Positions 21,625 to 27,464 of a stretch of DNA of 64,000 bases are shown in pieces. The DNA comes from Methanosarcina acetivorans C2A. GTDB taxonomy: Archaea > Halobacteriota > Methanosarcinia > Methanosarcinales > Methanosarcinaceae. Below the pieces are notes generated by a model, which worked only from the letters and a program-made list of their open reading frames with translations, was not told the DNA's origin and searched no databases. The DNA is taken from assembly GCF_000007345.1 (NCBI RefSeq), contig NC_003552.1, positions 1,178,001 to 1,242,000 of the forward strand, in the 5' to 3' direction. Positions within the stretch are counted from its first letter, which is position 1. Every line of letters begins with the position of its first letter. The position numbers and the translations under genes are program-made.

Positions 21625-22038
21625 ATGAAGCCCACAGAGAAAGCTGACATGAAATACACAAACCAGAGAGTCGAAATACTTGATTTCCTGCGTGAACACG
21701 ACGGTCATCCCACTGTAGACGAAGTTTATGATGGGGTTAGAAAAAAACTGACGCGTATCAGCAAGGCTACCGTTTATAAGAATCTTAAATTCCTTACGGA
21801 GAAAGGGTTACTGGAGGAGGTGAATGTAAAAGGGGTCTCAAGATTTGAAGCGAACTTCATTCCACATCACCATCTCATCTGCCGGGAATGCGGAAAGATG
21901 GAGGATTTTAATTCGGAACAATTGCTGGATTACTCAATGAAGATAGCTGAGGGAATAGAAGGATTTACTATTGTTTCAACGAGCACTAACTTCTATGGGA
22001 TATGTAAAAAGTGTAAGGAGCTTAAGGAGGAAACATAA
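21625..22038 (+). CDS. Fur-family regulator, PerR-like
   Basis: The 137-residue protein has the Fur winged helix (YTNQRVEILDFLREHDGHPTV, KATVYKNLKFLTEKGLL). It is followed by the metal-binding dimerisation domain with HHHLICRECGKMEDF (His cluster plus CxxC) and a second CKKC near the C-terminus for structural zinc. The pattern is closer to PerR, the peroxide sensor, than to iron-sensing Fur, but Asp/His ligands cannot be settled by eye. It lies 220 bases upstream of cydAB in the same direction, so it may control oxygen defence. ATG at 21649 is an alternative start. Confidence 0.85.
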   Translation: MKPTEKADMKYTNQRVEILDFLREHDGHPTVDEVYDGVRKKLTRISKATVYKNLKFLTEKGLLEEVNVKGVSRFEANFIPHHHLICRECGKMEDFNSEQLLDYSMKIAEGIEGFTIVSTSTNFYGICKKCKELKEET

Positions 22039-22258
22039 CCTGAGCAGAGCGTCGAGTGGGAACAGTGTGTTATCCGGCTGTACAATGGTATCTCTTTCAG
22101 ATAGTTAAAGATAAAAATCGGATGATACACGACATTCCATTTCAGATTTTCATTTATTAGATTGAGCATGAATAATCTGCAAGCCATGCCGGAAGACATC
22201 GGCTTGCTTCAGCGTAAATATGATCTTGTGCAGTAAATAAAAAAACGAGGGATAACGA

Positions 22259-23575
22259 ATGGTTGAGTTACTTTTATTGAGCCGGCTTCAGTTTGCCATA
22301 ACGGTTGCATTCCATTTCCTGTTCGTTCCACTAACACTGGGACTCGCATTCCTGGTGGCGGTCATGGAAACGGTATACTATAAAAACAAAGATGAAACCT
22401 GGCGAAGGATGGCTGACTTTTGGGGAAGAATATTCAAGATAAACTTTGCAATAGGTCTGGTAACAGGTCTTGCAATGACTTTTCAGTTCGGTACTAACTG
22501 GGGCGCCTATGCGGAATTCATGGGAGATGTCTTCGGACCGCCTTTAGCGGTGGAAGCGTTACTGGCTTTCTTTCTTGAAGGCACTTTCTTTGGCGCATGG
22601 ATATTCCTTGACCGCTCCCGTCAGAAACTGAAGGCGTTTTCCATGTGGATGGTCGCTCTGGGTACCAACATCTCTTCATTATGGATTATCACTGCTAACG
22701 GTTTTATGCAGAACCCCGTAGGGTATGAGATGGCTGCTGATGGGAGCAAGGTGATTATGACCGATTTCCTTGCTCTGGTTACAAACGGTTATGTGTGGTA
22801 CATGCTGGTACATACTCTGCTTTCAGCATATCTTCTGACAGCATTCCTGATCATGGGGATCTGTGCATATCATTTCCTTAAAAGGAACAATAGCGAAGTG
22901 TTCAGGAAGTCTTTTGGCATAGCAGTTGTCATAGCACTCGTTACTGCGGTCATGCTTCCGGTTCTCGGTCACGGTTATGCACAATATGTTGCTGAACTTC
23001 AACCAGCTAAAGGAGCGGCAATGGACGCGATATGGGAAACAGGGACTTCAGTGCCCATGTATCTGATACAGGCACCTGATTCGAGCACCGGTTCCAATAG
23101 TGTTCAGTTGCTGGGAATTCCAGGGCTTGCAAGTTTCCTGTATACGGGAAGTTTCAGCGGGACGATAACAGGACTTAACCAGCTAGCTCAGGATGAATTG
23201 CCGCCTGTAGGAATGGTATTCTGGAGCTTTCGGCTGATGACAATTCTCGGGTCCCTATTCATCATAGAGGCTCTTTTAGGTTTATATCTTCAAAAGTCAG
23301 GCAAGCTGTACACATCGGATAAGTATCTGAAGCTGCTGATGTGGTCTATTCCTCTTCCGTATATTGCCATTACTGCCGGCTGGATTGTAACCGAGGTAGG
23401 AAGGCAGCCATGGATAGTATACGGGCTGCTAAAGACAGTTAACGGGATATCATCGGTCCCCGTATCGGATGTGTTGTTAAGTGTTGTCCTTATCAGTGCA
23501 TTCTATCTGGTCCTTATAGTCTTTGAGATATACCTCATAAAGAAAACCGTAGTCAATGCAACAGGAGTTGAGTGA
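22259..23575 (+). CDS. cydA: Cytochrome bd oxidase subunit I
   Basis: The 438-residue membrane protein carries haems b558, b595 and d and reduces oxygen to water with electrons from a quinol-like carrier. Seen are the haem His19 near the N-terminus, TFQFGTNW (about 75-82), the conserved Glu in EALLAFFLEGTFFG (about 98-111), a His in the region MLVHTLLSAY, and the GRQPW motif (about 380-384). About nine membrane helices are expected. The length and short Q-loop fit the cyanide-insensitive/short form. In a methanogen the electron donor could be methanophenazine rather than quinol. It overlaps cydB and follows a Fur/PerR-type gene. Confidence 0.95.
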   Translation: MVELLLLSRLQFAITVAFHFLFVPLTLGLAFLVAVMETVYYKNKDETWRRMADFWGRIFKINFAIGLVTGLAMTFQFGTNWGAYAEFMGDVFGPPLAVEALLAFFLEGTFFGAWIFLDRSRQKLKAFSMWMVALGTNISSLWIITANGFMQNPVGYEMAADGSKVIMTDFLALVTNGYVWYMLVHTLLSAYLLTAFLIMGICAYHFLKRNNSEVFRKSFGIAVVIALVTAVMLPVLGHGYAQYVAELQPAKGAAMDAIWETGTSVPMYLIQAPDSSTGSNSVQLLGIPGLASFLYTGSFSGTITGLNQLAQDELPPVGMVFWSFRLMTILGSLFIIEALLGLYLQKSGKLYTSDKYLKLLMWSIPLPYIAITAGWIVTEVGRQPWIVYGLLKTVNGISSVPVSDVLLSVVLISAFYLVLIVFEIYLIKKTVVNATGVE

Positions 23576-23577
23576 AG

Positions 23578-24621
23578 ATGTTCGATTTCCTTACTCATGA
23601 TATGCTTGCTGTTGTCTGGTTCTTCCTGTGGTGTGTAATATGGGGAGTTTACTTCATTGCAGACTCCTTTTCCCTTGGAGCAGGGCTTTTGACACCCTTC
23701 ATTGCCGCAGATAAGGTGCAGAGGATCCAGATCCAGAGCTCTGTTGGTCCTTTCTGGGGCGGTAATGAAGTATGGCTAATCCTTGCTGCAGGAGGAACAT
23801 TTGCTGCATTCCCTCTGGTATTCTCGAAGATGTTTACTTTCCTCTATCTGCCTATGATGTTGCTGCTCATCGGCCTGATCGCAAGGGGCATTTCCGTGGA
23901 ATATCTCCACAAGGATGATAATCCCCGGATACAGCAGTTCCTGATGTGGGGATGGTTCGCTGGAAGCCTGCTGGTCTCTCTGGTTCTGGGAGTTGCATTT
24001 GCAAACTTCTTCAAGGGGCTCGAAATCGCTTCAGGAGGAGTTTATAAAGGTACTCTTCCCGGACTTTTCGGCCCGTATGCATTGATTAGCGGTGTCCTGT
24101 TCGTGCTTATGAGTGTTACATCAGGTGCGCTCTGGATCAATGTCAAAACTGAAGGCGCCGTAGCTGCAAAAGCAGGGGATCTGGCAAAAAAGAGCGCTCT
24201 TCTTGTACTCATATTTGCTCTGGTCTATCTGGCATACTCCTTTGCGGGTGTAGAAGGCTTTGCAACCAACTATTCGTCCATGCCGGTTCTGTACTTATTG
24301 CCGGTTCTTGCTGTAGGGGGTGCTGTCCTATCGGTATTTTTCGCAAAAAAGGGCAGGGCGTTTCCGGCCTTTTGCAGCAACCTCCTGGCGTTTCTTTTCA
24401 TAGTTGAAGGCGGGCTTGCAAGTATCTATCCTTATATGCTCAAATCCTCCATCTCTCCTGAGTACGGGATAGATATCTTTGAGGCTGCATCAAGCCATAT
24501 GACTCTGAGCGTCATGTTAGGGGGTGCACTGGTATTCGTGCCCATAGTTATCATCTACCAGCTGTGGGCGTATACGCTGTTCAGGGAAAAGATAACAGAA
24601 ACAGAACAGGTCGAATACTGA
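23578..24621 (+). CDS. cydB: Cytochrome bd oxidase subunit II
   Basis: About 347 residues from the ATG at 23578, directly after the cydA stop; a GTG at 23572 would overlap it. It has eight or nine membrane helices and family features such as DSFSLGAGLL near the N-terminus, FWGGNEVWLILAAGG and FPLVFSKMFT. CydB pairs with CydA to form the oxidase core and has no haem of its own. No small CydX-type frame was noticed after it; a terminator overlaps the stop codon. Confidence 0.95.
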   Translation: MFDFLTHDMLAVVWFFLWCVIWGVYFIADSFSLGAGLLTPFIAADKVQRIQIQSSVGPFWGGNEVWLILAAGGTFAAFPLVFSKMFTFLYLPMMLLLIGLIARGISVEYLHKDDNPRIQQFLMWGWFAGSLLVSLVLGVAFANFFKGLEIASGGVYKGTLPGLFGPYALISGVLFVLMSVTSGALWINVKTEGAVAAKAGDLAKKSALLVLIFALVYLAYSFAGVEGFATNYSSMPVLYLLPVLAVGGAVLSVFFAKKGRAFPAFCSNLLAFLFIVEGGLASIYPYMLKSSISPEYGIDIFEAASSHMTLSVMLGGALVFVPIVIIYQLWAYTLFREKITETEQVEY

Positions 24622-24645
24622 CCTGTTTTCTTTCATTTTTTATTT
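24605..24645 (+). terminator. Terminator after cydB
   Basis: AACAGGTC pairs with GACCTGTT around the cydB stop codon, followed by TTTTCTTTCATTTTTT. Confidence 0.65.
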
Positions 24646-24810: not shown

Positions 24811-24908
24811 AAAATGTTTTTTAAACGATAAATCATAAATGAACACTATAGTTTTATGTCATTTTGAGGTCCCTTAACTATTTTAAATGAGAGAAGGAGG
24901 AAGCTGGA

Positions 24909-26156
24909 ATGGCTGAATACTGTACATATGAAAAATATGTATTTAAAAAGCAGCTTGAAACTCTAAAAAGTAAAAATGGGAGGAGCACAGAATTAATTTC
25001 CCTTTATATCCCTCCTGATAAACAGATCTCAGATGTTACAAAGCATTTGAGAGAAGAACATGAGCAGGCTTCGAACATAATATCCAAACTTATCCGCAAT
25101 AATGTACAGGAAGCACTTCATTCTTTGCTGGCAAAGTTAAGGTCTCTTCACAAAATCCCGGAAAATGGGATCGTCTATTTTACAGGAACTGTCGATACCG
25201 GAGCTAACAGGACAGGCATGGTAAACGAAGTTCTTTTTCCTCCTGAACCTGTTGCAGATTACATATATCGCTGTGATTCCGTTTTTTATCTTGAGCCTCT
25301 TGAAGAAATGCTCAGGGAGTGTACAACTTATGGGCTTTTACTTCTTGATCTGAGAGAAGCGACTATCGGAATGCTTGTAGGCAGGCAAACTGAAGTTATT
25401 AAGCATCTTCACTCTACCGTTCCAGGCAAACAACGAAAAGGAGGGCAGAGTGCGCATCGTTTTGAACAGCTCAGGCGCATTGCGATTCATGATTTCTACA
25501 AGAGAATAGGGGATGCTACAAGTGAGGCATTCCTTGAACTGGATCCGGCTGAGCTTAAAGGCATTCTTATAGGGGGGCATTCCCCAACTAAAGAAGAGTT
25601 CAATGAAGGCGGATTTCTGCATTATGAACTTCAGAAAAAGGTTCTTGGACTGTTTGATACGGGGTATACGGATGAATCGGGTTTTTCAGAGTTAATAAAT
25701 GCAGCAGAGGAAACGCTCCAGAGTATTGACTTACTTAAGCAAAAGAAAGATATGGAAATCTTTTTTAAAGAAATCGCTACCGAGTCCGGTAAAATATCTT
25801 ATGGAGAGGACAACGTACGGGCAAATCTTGAGATAAAGGCGGTTGATGTGCTTTTGCTTTCTGAAGAACTGCGGGCTGAAAGAGTAACTCTCAAGTGCAG
25901 GGTTTGCGGATATGAGAATAAACGGACAAGAAAATGGAAAACCGGTGAAGCTGTTCCTGCGATTGGACATTGTCCTGAATGCGATTCTGAACTTGAAGTC
26001 ACGGATGTTATCGATACAGTTGGTGAACTCTCAGAACTCGCTGATAAAGGCGATGCAAGGATTGCTTTTATATCAACAGATTTCGACGAAGGCTCTCAAC
26101 TTATGATAGCTTTTGGCGGAATTGCTGCAATCCTTAGATATAACACGGGGGTGTAG
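24909..26156 (+). CDS. prf1: Archaeal peptide chain release factor aRF1, divergent paralogue
   Basis: A 415-residue class I release factor. Domain 2 has the GGQ motif (residues 178-180) that triggers peptide release, and the YxCxxxF stop-codon motif is intact (YRCDSVF, 120-126). The NIKS loop, which contacts the first base of the stop codon, reads NIIS (56-59), with Ile in place of the near-invariant Lys. Domain 3 has the usual four-cysteine zinc site (CRVCG ... CPEC) and ends with an FGGIAAILRY tail. A strong GGAGGAAG site precedes the ATG. Some Methanosarcina are reported to have an extra aRF1, and this may be that copy. Whether the usual copy exists elsewhere cannot be seen here. Confidence 0.9.
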   Translation: MAEYCTYEKYVFKKQLETLKSKNGRSTELISLYIPPDKQISDVTKHLREEHEQASNIISKLIRNNVQEALHSLLAKLRSLHKIPENGIVYFTGTVDTGANRTGMVNEVLFPPEPVADYIYRCDSVFYLEPLEEMLRECTTYGLLLLDLREATIGMLVGRQTEVIKHLHSTVPGKQRKGGQSAHRFEQLRRIAIHDFYKRIGDATSEAFLELDPAELKGILIGGHSPTKEEFNEGGFLHYELQKKVLGLFDTGYTDESGFSELINAAEETLQSIDLLKQKKDMEIFFKEIATESGKISYGEDNVRANLEIKAVDVLLLSEELRAERVTLKCRVCGYENKRTRKWKTGEAVPAIGHCPECDSELEVTDVIDTVGELSELADKGDARIAFISTDFDEGSQLMIAFGGIAAILRYNTGV

Positions 26157-26166
26157 GTCGGTTCAC

Positions 26167-26246
26167 GGGTTTGATAGTTAATGGGTTTGATAGTTAATGG
26201 GTTTGATAGTTAATGGGTTTGATAGTTAATGGGTTTGATAGTTAAT
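26167..26246. repeat. Five tandem 16-base units
   Basis: GGGTTTGATAGTTAAT is repeated five times without change between the release factor gene and the IS605 element end. Confidence 0.95.
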
Positions 26247-26264
26247 GAATTCACGTGAACTACC

Positions 26265-26353
26265 ACTCAGCTAAAGACTGAGTTGCTTCTTGGTTCATTC
26301 TTCCCTCTATTGAGGGCAAGTCCCCAAGCTCTTCCCCACGTTCCGTAGGTGTT
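26265..26353 (-). ncRNA. Probable TnpB guide RNA (omega/reRNA) 3' end
   Basis: The segment between the tnpB stop codon and the element end includes a 26-base block (26328-26353) that is identical to positions 57631-57656, next to the tnpB relic at 57.6 kb. TnpB guide RNAs are encoded at this place. The RNA would extend into the end of tnpB and beyond the element end. Boundaries are not determined. Confidence 0.45.
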
Positions 26354-27464
26354 ACAATCCAATTAGATTTTGATCTATGAGAGCGAATTTCTTGATATTG
26401 ATAGCGGCATTTATGTCTCTATCATGTTTTGTTTTACAATCAGGACAAGTCCATTCTCTGTCTTTTAACTGAAGCTCTTTATTATGGTATCCACACACGT
26501 TACAGAGCTTAGAAGAAGGTTCAAATTGTCCTGTCCTTAATACGCCTTTTCCAAACCATTCTGCTTTATATTCTAACTTTGTTACAAAGCTGCTCCATGC
26601 TGAATCACTTAAAGCCTGTGCCAAATGATGAATTTTAACCATACCTTTAACATTCAGAGTTTCCAGAGCTACAGCTTGGTTTTCGCTAACAAGTCTAAAA
26701 GAGAGTTTGTTCTGGAAGTCATTCCTCTGATTTGTTATTTTGTCGTGGAGTACAGCAAGCCTCTGTTTGGCTTTTGCCCTATTTTTAGAGCCTTTTTGTT
26801 TCCTTGATACTCTTTTCTGAAGGACCTTTAACCTTTGCAAAGAGTTTTTCAGGTATTTAGGATTCTCAATCTTTTCTCCTGTGGAAAGGACGGCAAAATC
26901 TTTGATACCTACATATATTCCTACTGTTGTTGATTCTGAGAATCCCTGTTTTTCAGGAAGTTCTTTACCGTCTTCAACAAGGACGCTGATGTAGTAATGC
27001 CCTTTACAAGTCCTTGATACCCTAGCTGTTTTAAGTTCTCCATCAAACTTTCGGTGAAGAACTGCTTTAATCTCACCAATTTTAGGAAGTTTAACGGTAT
27101 GGTTTTCAAAATTCACAGAATAGTGTTGGGGTACGGGAAAAGACTGGATAGGATTTTTCTTTGACTTAAACTTCGGAAATCCATTCTTCTCTCGGAAAAA
27201 TCGAGTGAAAGCAGACTCAACCTGCTTAGTCATCCCCTGTAATAATTGAGAGTTGACTTCCCCTAACCATTCATTAGAAGCCTTCAGAGTAGGAATTAAT
27301 TTGTTTAAGTCAAATCTGGAAATTGATTTCCCAGTTTGTTCGTAAGTTTTAATTTTTTGATCTAACGCCCAATTGTAGACAAACCTGCAACTACCTATAT
27401 GCTGATTCAATTGAACAGCTTGTGTAGTTGTAGGATAGAGTCTAAATTTGAACGTTTTCATCAT
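26352..27464 (-). CDS. tnpB: TnpB RNA-guided nuclease homologue with altered RuvC site
   Basis: The 370-residue OrfB/TnpB protein starts with the helix-turn-helix region MMKTFKFRLYPT and ends with the four-cysteine zinc ribbon (CNVCGYH ... CPDC) and HDRDINAAINI with the third RuvC Asp. The second RuvC acid is in ALETLNVKGM. The first RuvC Asp, normally in GIDxGxKDF, is Tyr184 here (GIYVGIKDF, codon TAT at 26913-26915). The decayed relative at 61.9 kb keeps Asp at this place. The frame is otherwise full-length, so the protein may bind guide RNA and DNA without cutting, or the mutation is just early decay. Confidence 0.9.
   Translation of the reverse strand: MMKTFKFRLYPTTTQAVQLNQHIGSCRFVYNWALDQKIKTYEQTGKSISRFDLNKLIPTLKASNEWLGEVNSQLLQGMTKQVESAFTRFFREKNGFPKFKSKKNPIQSFPVPQHYSVNFENHTVKLPKIGEIKAVLHRKFDGELKTARVSRTCKGHYYISVLVEDGKELPEKQGFSESTTVGIYVGIKDFAVLSTGEKIENPKYLKNSLQRLKVLQKRVSRKQKGSKNRAKAKQRLAVLHDKITNQRNDFQNKLSFRLVSENQAVALETLNVKGMVKIHHLAQALSDSAWSSFVTKLEYKAEWFGKGVLRTGQFEPSSKLCNVCGYHNKELQLKDREWTCPDCKTKHDRDINAAINIKKFALIDQNLIGL

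Follow-up and report, generated by a model that had tools for sequence, protein, structure and literature searches.

Rescue hydrolases of the ArfB/ICT1/mtRF-R kind have a bacterial-type fold, act through a GGQ motif and have been freed from stop-codon reading, with a basic tail serving ArfB/ICT1 as the device for an empty mRNA channel. We are aware of no archaeal factor described so far that carries out rescue by means of an aRF1-derived hydrolase with a decayed stop-codon reader. Here we describe a paralog of archaeal release factor aRF1, called aRF1-2, encoded in a 64,000-nucleotide stretch of the Methanosarcina acetivorans C2A genome (the window). It would resemble the ArfB/ICT1/mtRF-R enzymes in the way it works, although the folds are unrelated and the paralog has no basic tail.

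The paralog shares with archaeal aRF1 (TIGR03676; PDB 4af1, 3agk) its three domains, the YxCxxxF and GGQ motifs and the zinc-ribbon cysteines, but differs in a drifted NIKS motif, a decoding domain relaxed about tenfold and, according to review passages, inactivity at stop codons. The ciliate eRF1-2 paralogs (PMC2613156) are likewise extra eRF1s with a variant NIKS in which YxCxxxF and GGQ are kept, but they derive from an unrelated duplication and occur in hosts with changed genetic codes. Pelota/Dom34 belongs to the same superfamily, also binds the A site and has the rescue role that we propose for the paralog, whereas its N domain is different and it contains neither GGQ nor NIKS. Finally, the baeRF family 10/VLRF1/Balon-like proteins, some of which have been proposed to act in rescue or hibernation (PMC6514570, PMC10901736), have an eRF1-like M domain as the paralog does but are far more divergent (27-32% identity), the paralog being a much more recent aRF1 duplicate.

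Reviews citing Alkalaeva 2009 state that Methanosarcina has two release factor homologs, of which just one is active in termination (PMC2933860, PMC2943090). In the relevant passages, the two reviews disagree on the species holding the pair, and this literature of 2009-2010 treated the role of the second aRF1 as an open question; a role in UAG/pyrrolysine decoding had already been proposed (via PMC2933860). The window paralog appears to be this second homolog or its ortholog. The passages on the second aRF1 contain no description of loop drift or domain-wise selection, and a 2025 M. acetivorans ribosome paper has aEF2/PurH, not aRF1, as its subject. The gene is already known; what we add is that selection has separated decoding from catalysis.

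A second aRF1 in M. acetivorans

The first-pass annotation of the window described a release factor with NIIS in place of NIKS and with YRCDSVF and GGQ intact, and translation of the open reading frame bore this out (Table 1). The loop lies within EQASNIISKL, with I58 and the codons AAC ATA ATA TCC for NIIS; the translation also contains PGKQRKGGQSAHRF, and GGQ occupies residues 178-180. The annotation further considered that the protein may be a second release factor in addition to a canonical aRF1, a view that the absence of another aRF1 would contradict. A canonical aRF1 with NIKS, 69% identical to aRF1-2, is present at C1:53371-54615 of the same 5.75 Mb genome. Pelota is encoded at C1:765841, and PylB was found as well (601.8 bits), in line with the description of the host as a carrier of pyrrolysine genes. 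A fourth eRF1-superfamily protein of this genome is baeRF10-like (L116, G000:C1:1535227-1535631), and such proteins also occur in relatives (L049-L059); they are possibly among the 'potential Balon' proteins reported for Methanosarcinia (PMC13324472). A complementary distribution of aRF1-2 and the baeRF10-like protein was ruled out, as G000 carries both.

Table 1. Coordinates of the aRF1-2 gene and associated features in the window
Feature	Coordinates	Strand	Remarks
Terminator-like hairpin, cydB end, upstream of paralog	24603-24629	+	Consensus match only
Shine-Dalgarno-like AAGGAGG	24894-24900	+	8 nt 5' of ATG; recurs upstream of several orthologs
aRF1 paralog (aRF1-2) CDS	24909-26156	+	415 aa, stop TAG; TIGR03676 586.5 bits; tree clade 100/100
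N (decoding) domain, aa 1-139	24909-25325	+	Relaxed, dN/dS 0.445 (partner canonical genes: 0.046); limits approximate
NIIS, aa 56-59, at position of stop-codon loop NIKS	25074-25085	+
YRCDSVF (YxCxxxF motif), aa 120-126	25266-25286	+	Motif intact in window protein
M (peptidyl-tRNA hydrolysis) domain, aa 140-272	25326-25724	+	dN/dS 0.11; limits approximate
GGQ loop region STVPGKQRKGGQSAHRFEQ, aa 169-187	25413-25469	+	GGQ itself 25440-25448
C domain, aa 273-415	25725-26153	+	Conserved Cys 330, 333, 355, 358; limits approximate
UAG stop codon	26154-26156	+	Next in-frame stop TGA 26172-26174, after VGSRV

The protein exceeds the cut-off (234.7 bits) of the TIGR03676 aRF1_eRF1 equivalog model and contains all three Pfam eRF1 domains (PF03463, PF03464, PF03465). 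Its score with the Pelota model (58.8 bits) is under the cut-off of 177.65 and GGQ is present, so it is not Pelota/Dom34. Among the hallmarks of class-1 release factors, the three domains, GGQ and YxCxxxF were found and NIKS was not. As judged from its sequence, aRF1-2 is a member of the aRF1/eRF1 class 1 by descent, not by stop-codon-reading function. A structure predicted from 25 sequences has the eRF1 fold (mean pLDDT 79.8; an earlier model from 11 close sequences had a pLDDT of 37), with the archaeal aRF1 4af1 as the top PDB match in a fold search and the NIIS loop placed between helices 40-54 and 60-79. The 415-residue protein shows no large gaps in alignment with canonical aRF1s and has no Balon-like insertions, and neither a new basic tail, nor an obvious empty-mRNA-channel device, nor an insertion for sensing stalled ribosomes was found in it.

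Loop drift and domain-wise selection

Across 15 orthologs the loop reads NIKS, NIIS, NIES, NIQP, NIKP, KIKS, GIKS or DIKS, with variation at N56, K58 and S59, while all 49 canonical aRF1s of the order have NIKS. Because K58 is invariant in these 49 proteins and parsimony counts nine changes at the NIKS sites in the paralog tree against none in the canonical trees, NIIS is not a chance matter. Of the genomes examined, M. acetivorans alone has Ile58; K, E or Q occupies this position in other orthologs, and a split copy in G174 reads NIVS, with V there. Since loop sequences differ among orthologs, the Ile of NIIS is best read as one instance of lost constraint and not as a conserved feature or specificity switch, and a conserved new codon specificity was rejected on the same ground. 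The rate of the loop is high by the standard of the N domain but not exceptional, as 21 of the 135 windows of four residues in this domain are as variable or more so. YxCxxxF is broken in two orthologs (C122 to S in G154, F126 to Y in G170). The GGQ loop region, residues 169-187, has a single change (R176K) in the 15 orthologs, and GGQ is invariant.

To estimate selection, a one-ratio codon model was fitted, with the trees fixed, to the 15 paralogs and to the canonical genes from the same genomes. The paralogs gave dN/dS values of 0.445 (N), 0.112 (M) and 0.209 (C), compared with 0.046, 0.049 and 0.075 in the partner canonical genes; this is about tenfold the canonical value in the N domain and four times canonical overall. 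All six values lie significantly below 1, and the paralog is therefore not a neutral pseudogene. Around GGQ (residues 160-200) the value falls to 0.061. Leaving out the basal copy of G159, which looks partly canonical in codons 91-150, left the result essentially unchanged (N 0.455, M 0.111). Sites invariant in the 49 canonical aRF1s were kept in the paralogs at 22/48 positions in N, 50/61 in M and 26/32 in C, and the N to M comparison gave a Fisher p of 1e-4, a guide only because the sequences are related. With N at about tenfold the canonical rate and M staying at 0.11, the selection pattern indicates that the constraint on decoding has been lost and that on peptidyl-tRNA hydrolysis kept, a combination that could also stem from fold constraints in slow decay.

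The G159 paralog (L018) shows a peculiarity of its own: in codons 91-150 its DNA is 80-87% identical to its own canonical aRF1, compared with about 70% in other paralogs, and both genes share CNST within YxCxxxF. The canonical gene may have served as donor for gene conversion in this stretch.

Origin, distribution and neighborhood

A full-length paralog occurs in 15 of 185 genomes of the order (12 of 30 Methanosarcina genomes and 3 of 4 of one sister genus), in every case alongside a canonical aRF1. No copy was found in 16 of the 30 Methanosarcina genomes, several of them incomplete, nor in one of the four sister-genus genomes. Remains are present in two further genomes, G174 (UBA8098), where the copy is split, and KYL-1 (G169), where it is truncated after about residue 81; an interpretation of the former as a frameshift pseudogene was withdrawn, since the break falls on an ambiguous assembly base. 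Genomes carrying the paralog are larger than those without it. Given its absence from many relatives and the truncation in KYL-1, the gene is dispensable. The 15 paralogs form one clade (support 100/100), which is nested in the canonical Methanosarcina group and set off by a long stem (0.29), and the aRF1 duplication is a single event in this lineage. Among 390 genomes of the phylum, the sole other aRF1 duplicate seen belongs to archaeon G472 and keeps NIKS in both copies. These two genes (L149, L150), which also have GGQ intact, represent either a real duplication or a mixed assembly.

In the window, genes for a Fur-like regulator, cydA and cydB (21625-24621) are followed by the hairpin and then by the paralog. 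The hairpin, itself a consensus match, suggests a separate transcription unit. The paralog lies beside fur-cydAB in seven carriers, M. acetivorans and six others in which it is upstream of fur-cydAB, on the side opposite to that in the window; the remaining carriers have it in other contexts, some of them shared. cydA is found in 9/15 carriers and 5/24 other genomes (p = 0.02, uncorrected for phylogeny). Because six carriers are without cydA, we leave a connection to cytochrome bd or oxygen stress as a lead. On the other side, the paralog is separated from the cdh operon by a TnpB/IS605 OrfB-like reading frame (26352-27464, minus strand), noticed by eye. TAG is the stop codon of 7/15 orthologs (including the window copy and L010-L015) and of 0/16 canonical genes, and it makes up about 6% of the stops of sampled ORFs in the Pyl-using genomes of paralog carriers. 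The readthrough tails past this codon are short and not conserved, and the TAG stop may be one inherited event.

Possible functions of aRF1-2

In the simplest account, selection still acts on the protein for peptidyl-tRNA hydrolysis in the A site and selection for stop reading is gone; aRF1-2 would then be a rescue-like release factor that works independently of the codon. The paralog probably releases proteins in a situation other than normal stop-codon reading, and we see an even chance that it acts as an aRF1-derived, codon-independent peptidyl-tRNA hydrolase, as the selection pattern suggests. An aRF1 copy would have arisen once in the Methanosarcina lineage and then lost stop-codon reading; the duplication and the drift of the decoding motif are observed, and the stop-codon inactivity comes from the literature. 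The domain-wise selection is likewise observed, and the duplicate may have been retained as a GGQ-dependent peptidyl-tRNA hydrolase. We infer that it would enter the A site, most likely with the usual partners aEF1A and ABCE1 and with no particular codon needed, and that codon-independent hydrolysis would free nascent chains from ribosomes unresolved by normal termination or Pelota. The retention of E50, I57, Y120 and most of YxCxxxF speaks against this explanation. More tentatively, and with somewhat less than even confidence, we propose an archaeal ribosome-rescue hydrolase made by aRF1 duplication and decay of the stop-codon reader, a counterpart of ArfB/mtRF-R in logic and not in fold.

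Since the rescue reading leaves the sensing of stalled ribosomes unexplained and many relatives dispense with the gene, a serious rival, although we consider it unlikely, is that aRF1-2 is a dispensable duplicate in slow decay, whose role overlapped that of aRF1, whose decoding part eroded first and which some lineages have lost. The truncated KYL-1 copy, the Methanosarcina and sister-genus genomes with no copy found, the larger genomes of carriers and the fourfold overall dN/dS all fit such a course. On the other hand, 15 full-length frames have stayed open through a long shared history, and decay would not be expected to spare the catalytic loop or to leave dN/dS at 0.11 in the M domain and 0.06 around GGQ.

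There is little likelihood that aRF1-2 is a hibernation factor parked in the A site of idle ribosomes like bacterial Balon. Balon shares its superfamily and A-site geometry, is likewise without NIKS (PMC10901736) and is represented by structures among the fold-search matches. However, Balon is recognized by the absence of both NIKS and GGQ (PMC10901736), whereas aRF1-2 has GGQ, which with its surroundings is the most conserved part of the protein, and the Balon-like insertions are absent.

Equally improbable is a release factor whose stop-codon specificity has changed and which adjusts the balance between UAG termination and pyrrolysine insertion. The pyl genes of the host, the proposal relayed by PMC2933860, and ciliate eRF1s with variant NIKS (PMC2613156) and changed specificity (PMC4698671) lend it some plausibility. 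However, the loop shows no conserved new sequence, and the review passages describe the second homolog as inactive (PMC2933860, PMC2943090). The pyrrolysine link suggested by the first-pass annotation was rejected on distribution, since 17 relatives that have pylB carry no intact paralog. Its suggestion that the protein could ignore some stop codons or serve ribosome rescue fared better, as it agrees with the reported inactivity, the relaxed decoding domain and a GGQ domain still under selection; its proposal of a specific altered decoding found no support. A non-catalytic regulator, for example a decoy that rivals aRF1 in binding aEF1A or in occupying the A site, would fit a full-length protein with all three domains and a still constrained C domain but would have no need of an almost invariant GGQ loop, and we regard it as very improbable.

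If the rescue reading is true, archaea have a second route of rescue in addition to Pelota, one that relies on GGQ, and the paralog would be a natural example of stop-codon recognition split from peptide release. The suggested tie between the aRF1 duplicate and pyrrolysine decoding is weakened, and the split of selection between domains makes stop-codon-free peptidyl-tRNA hydrolysis directly testable.
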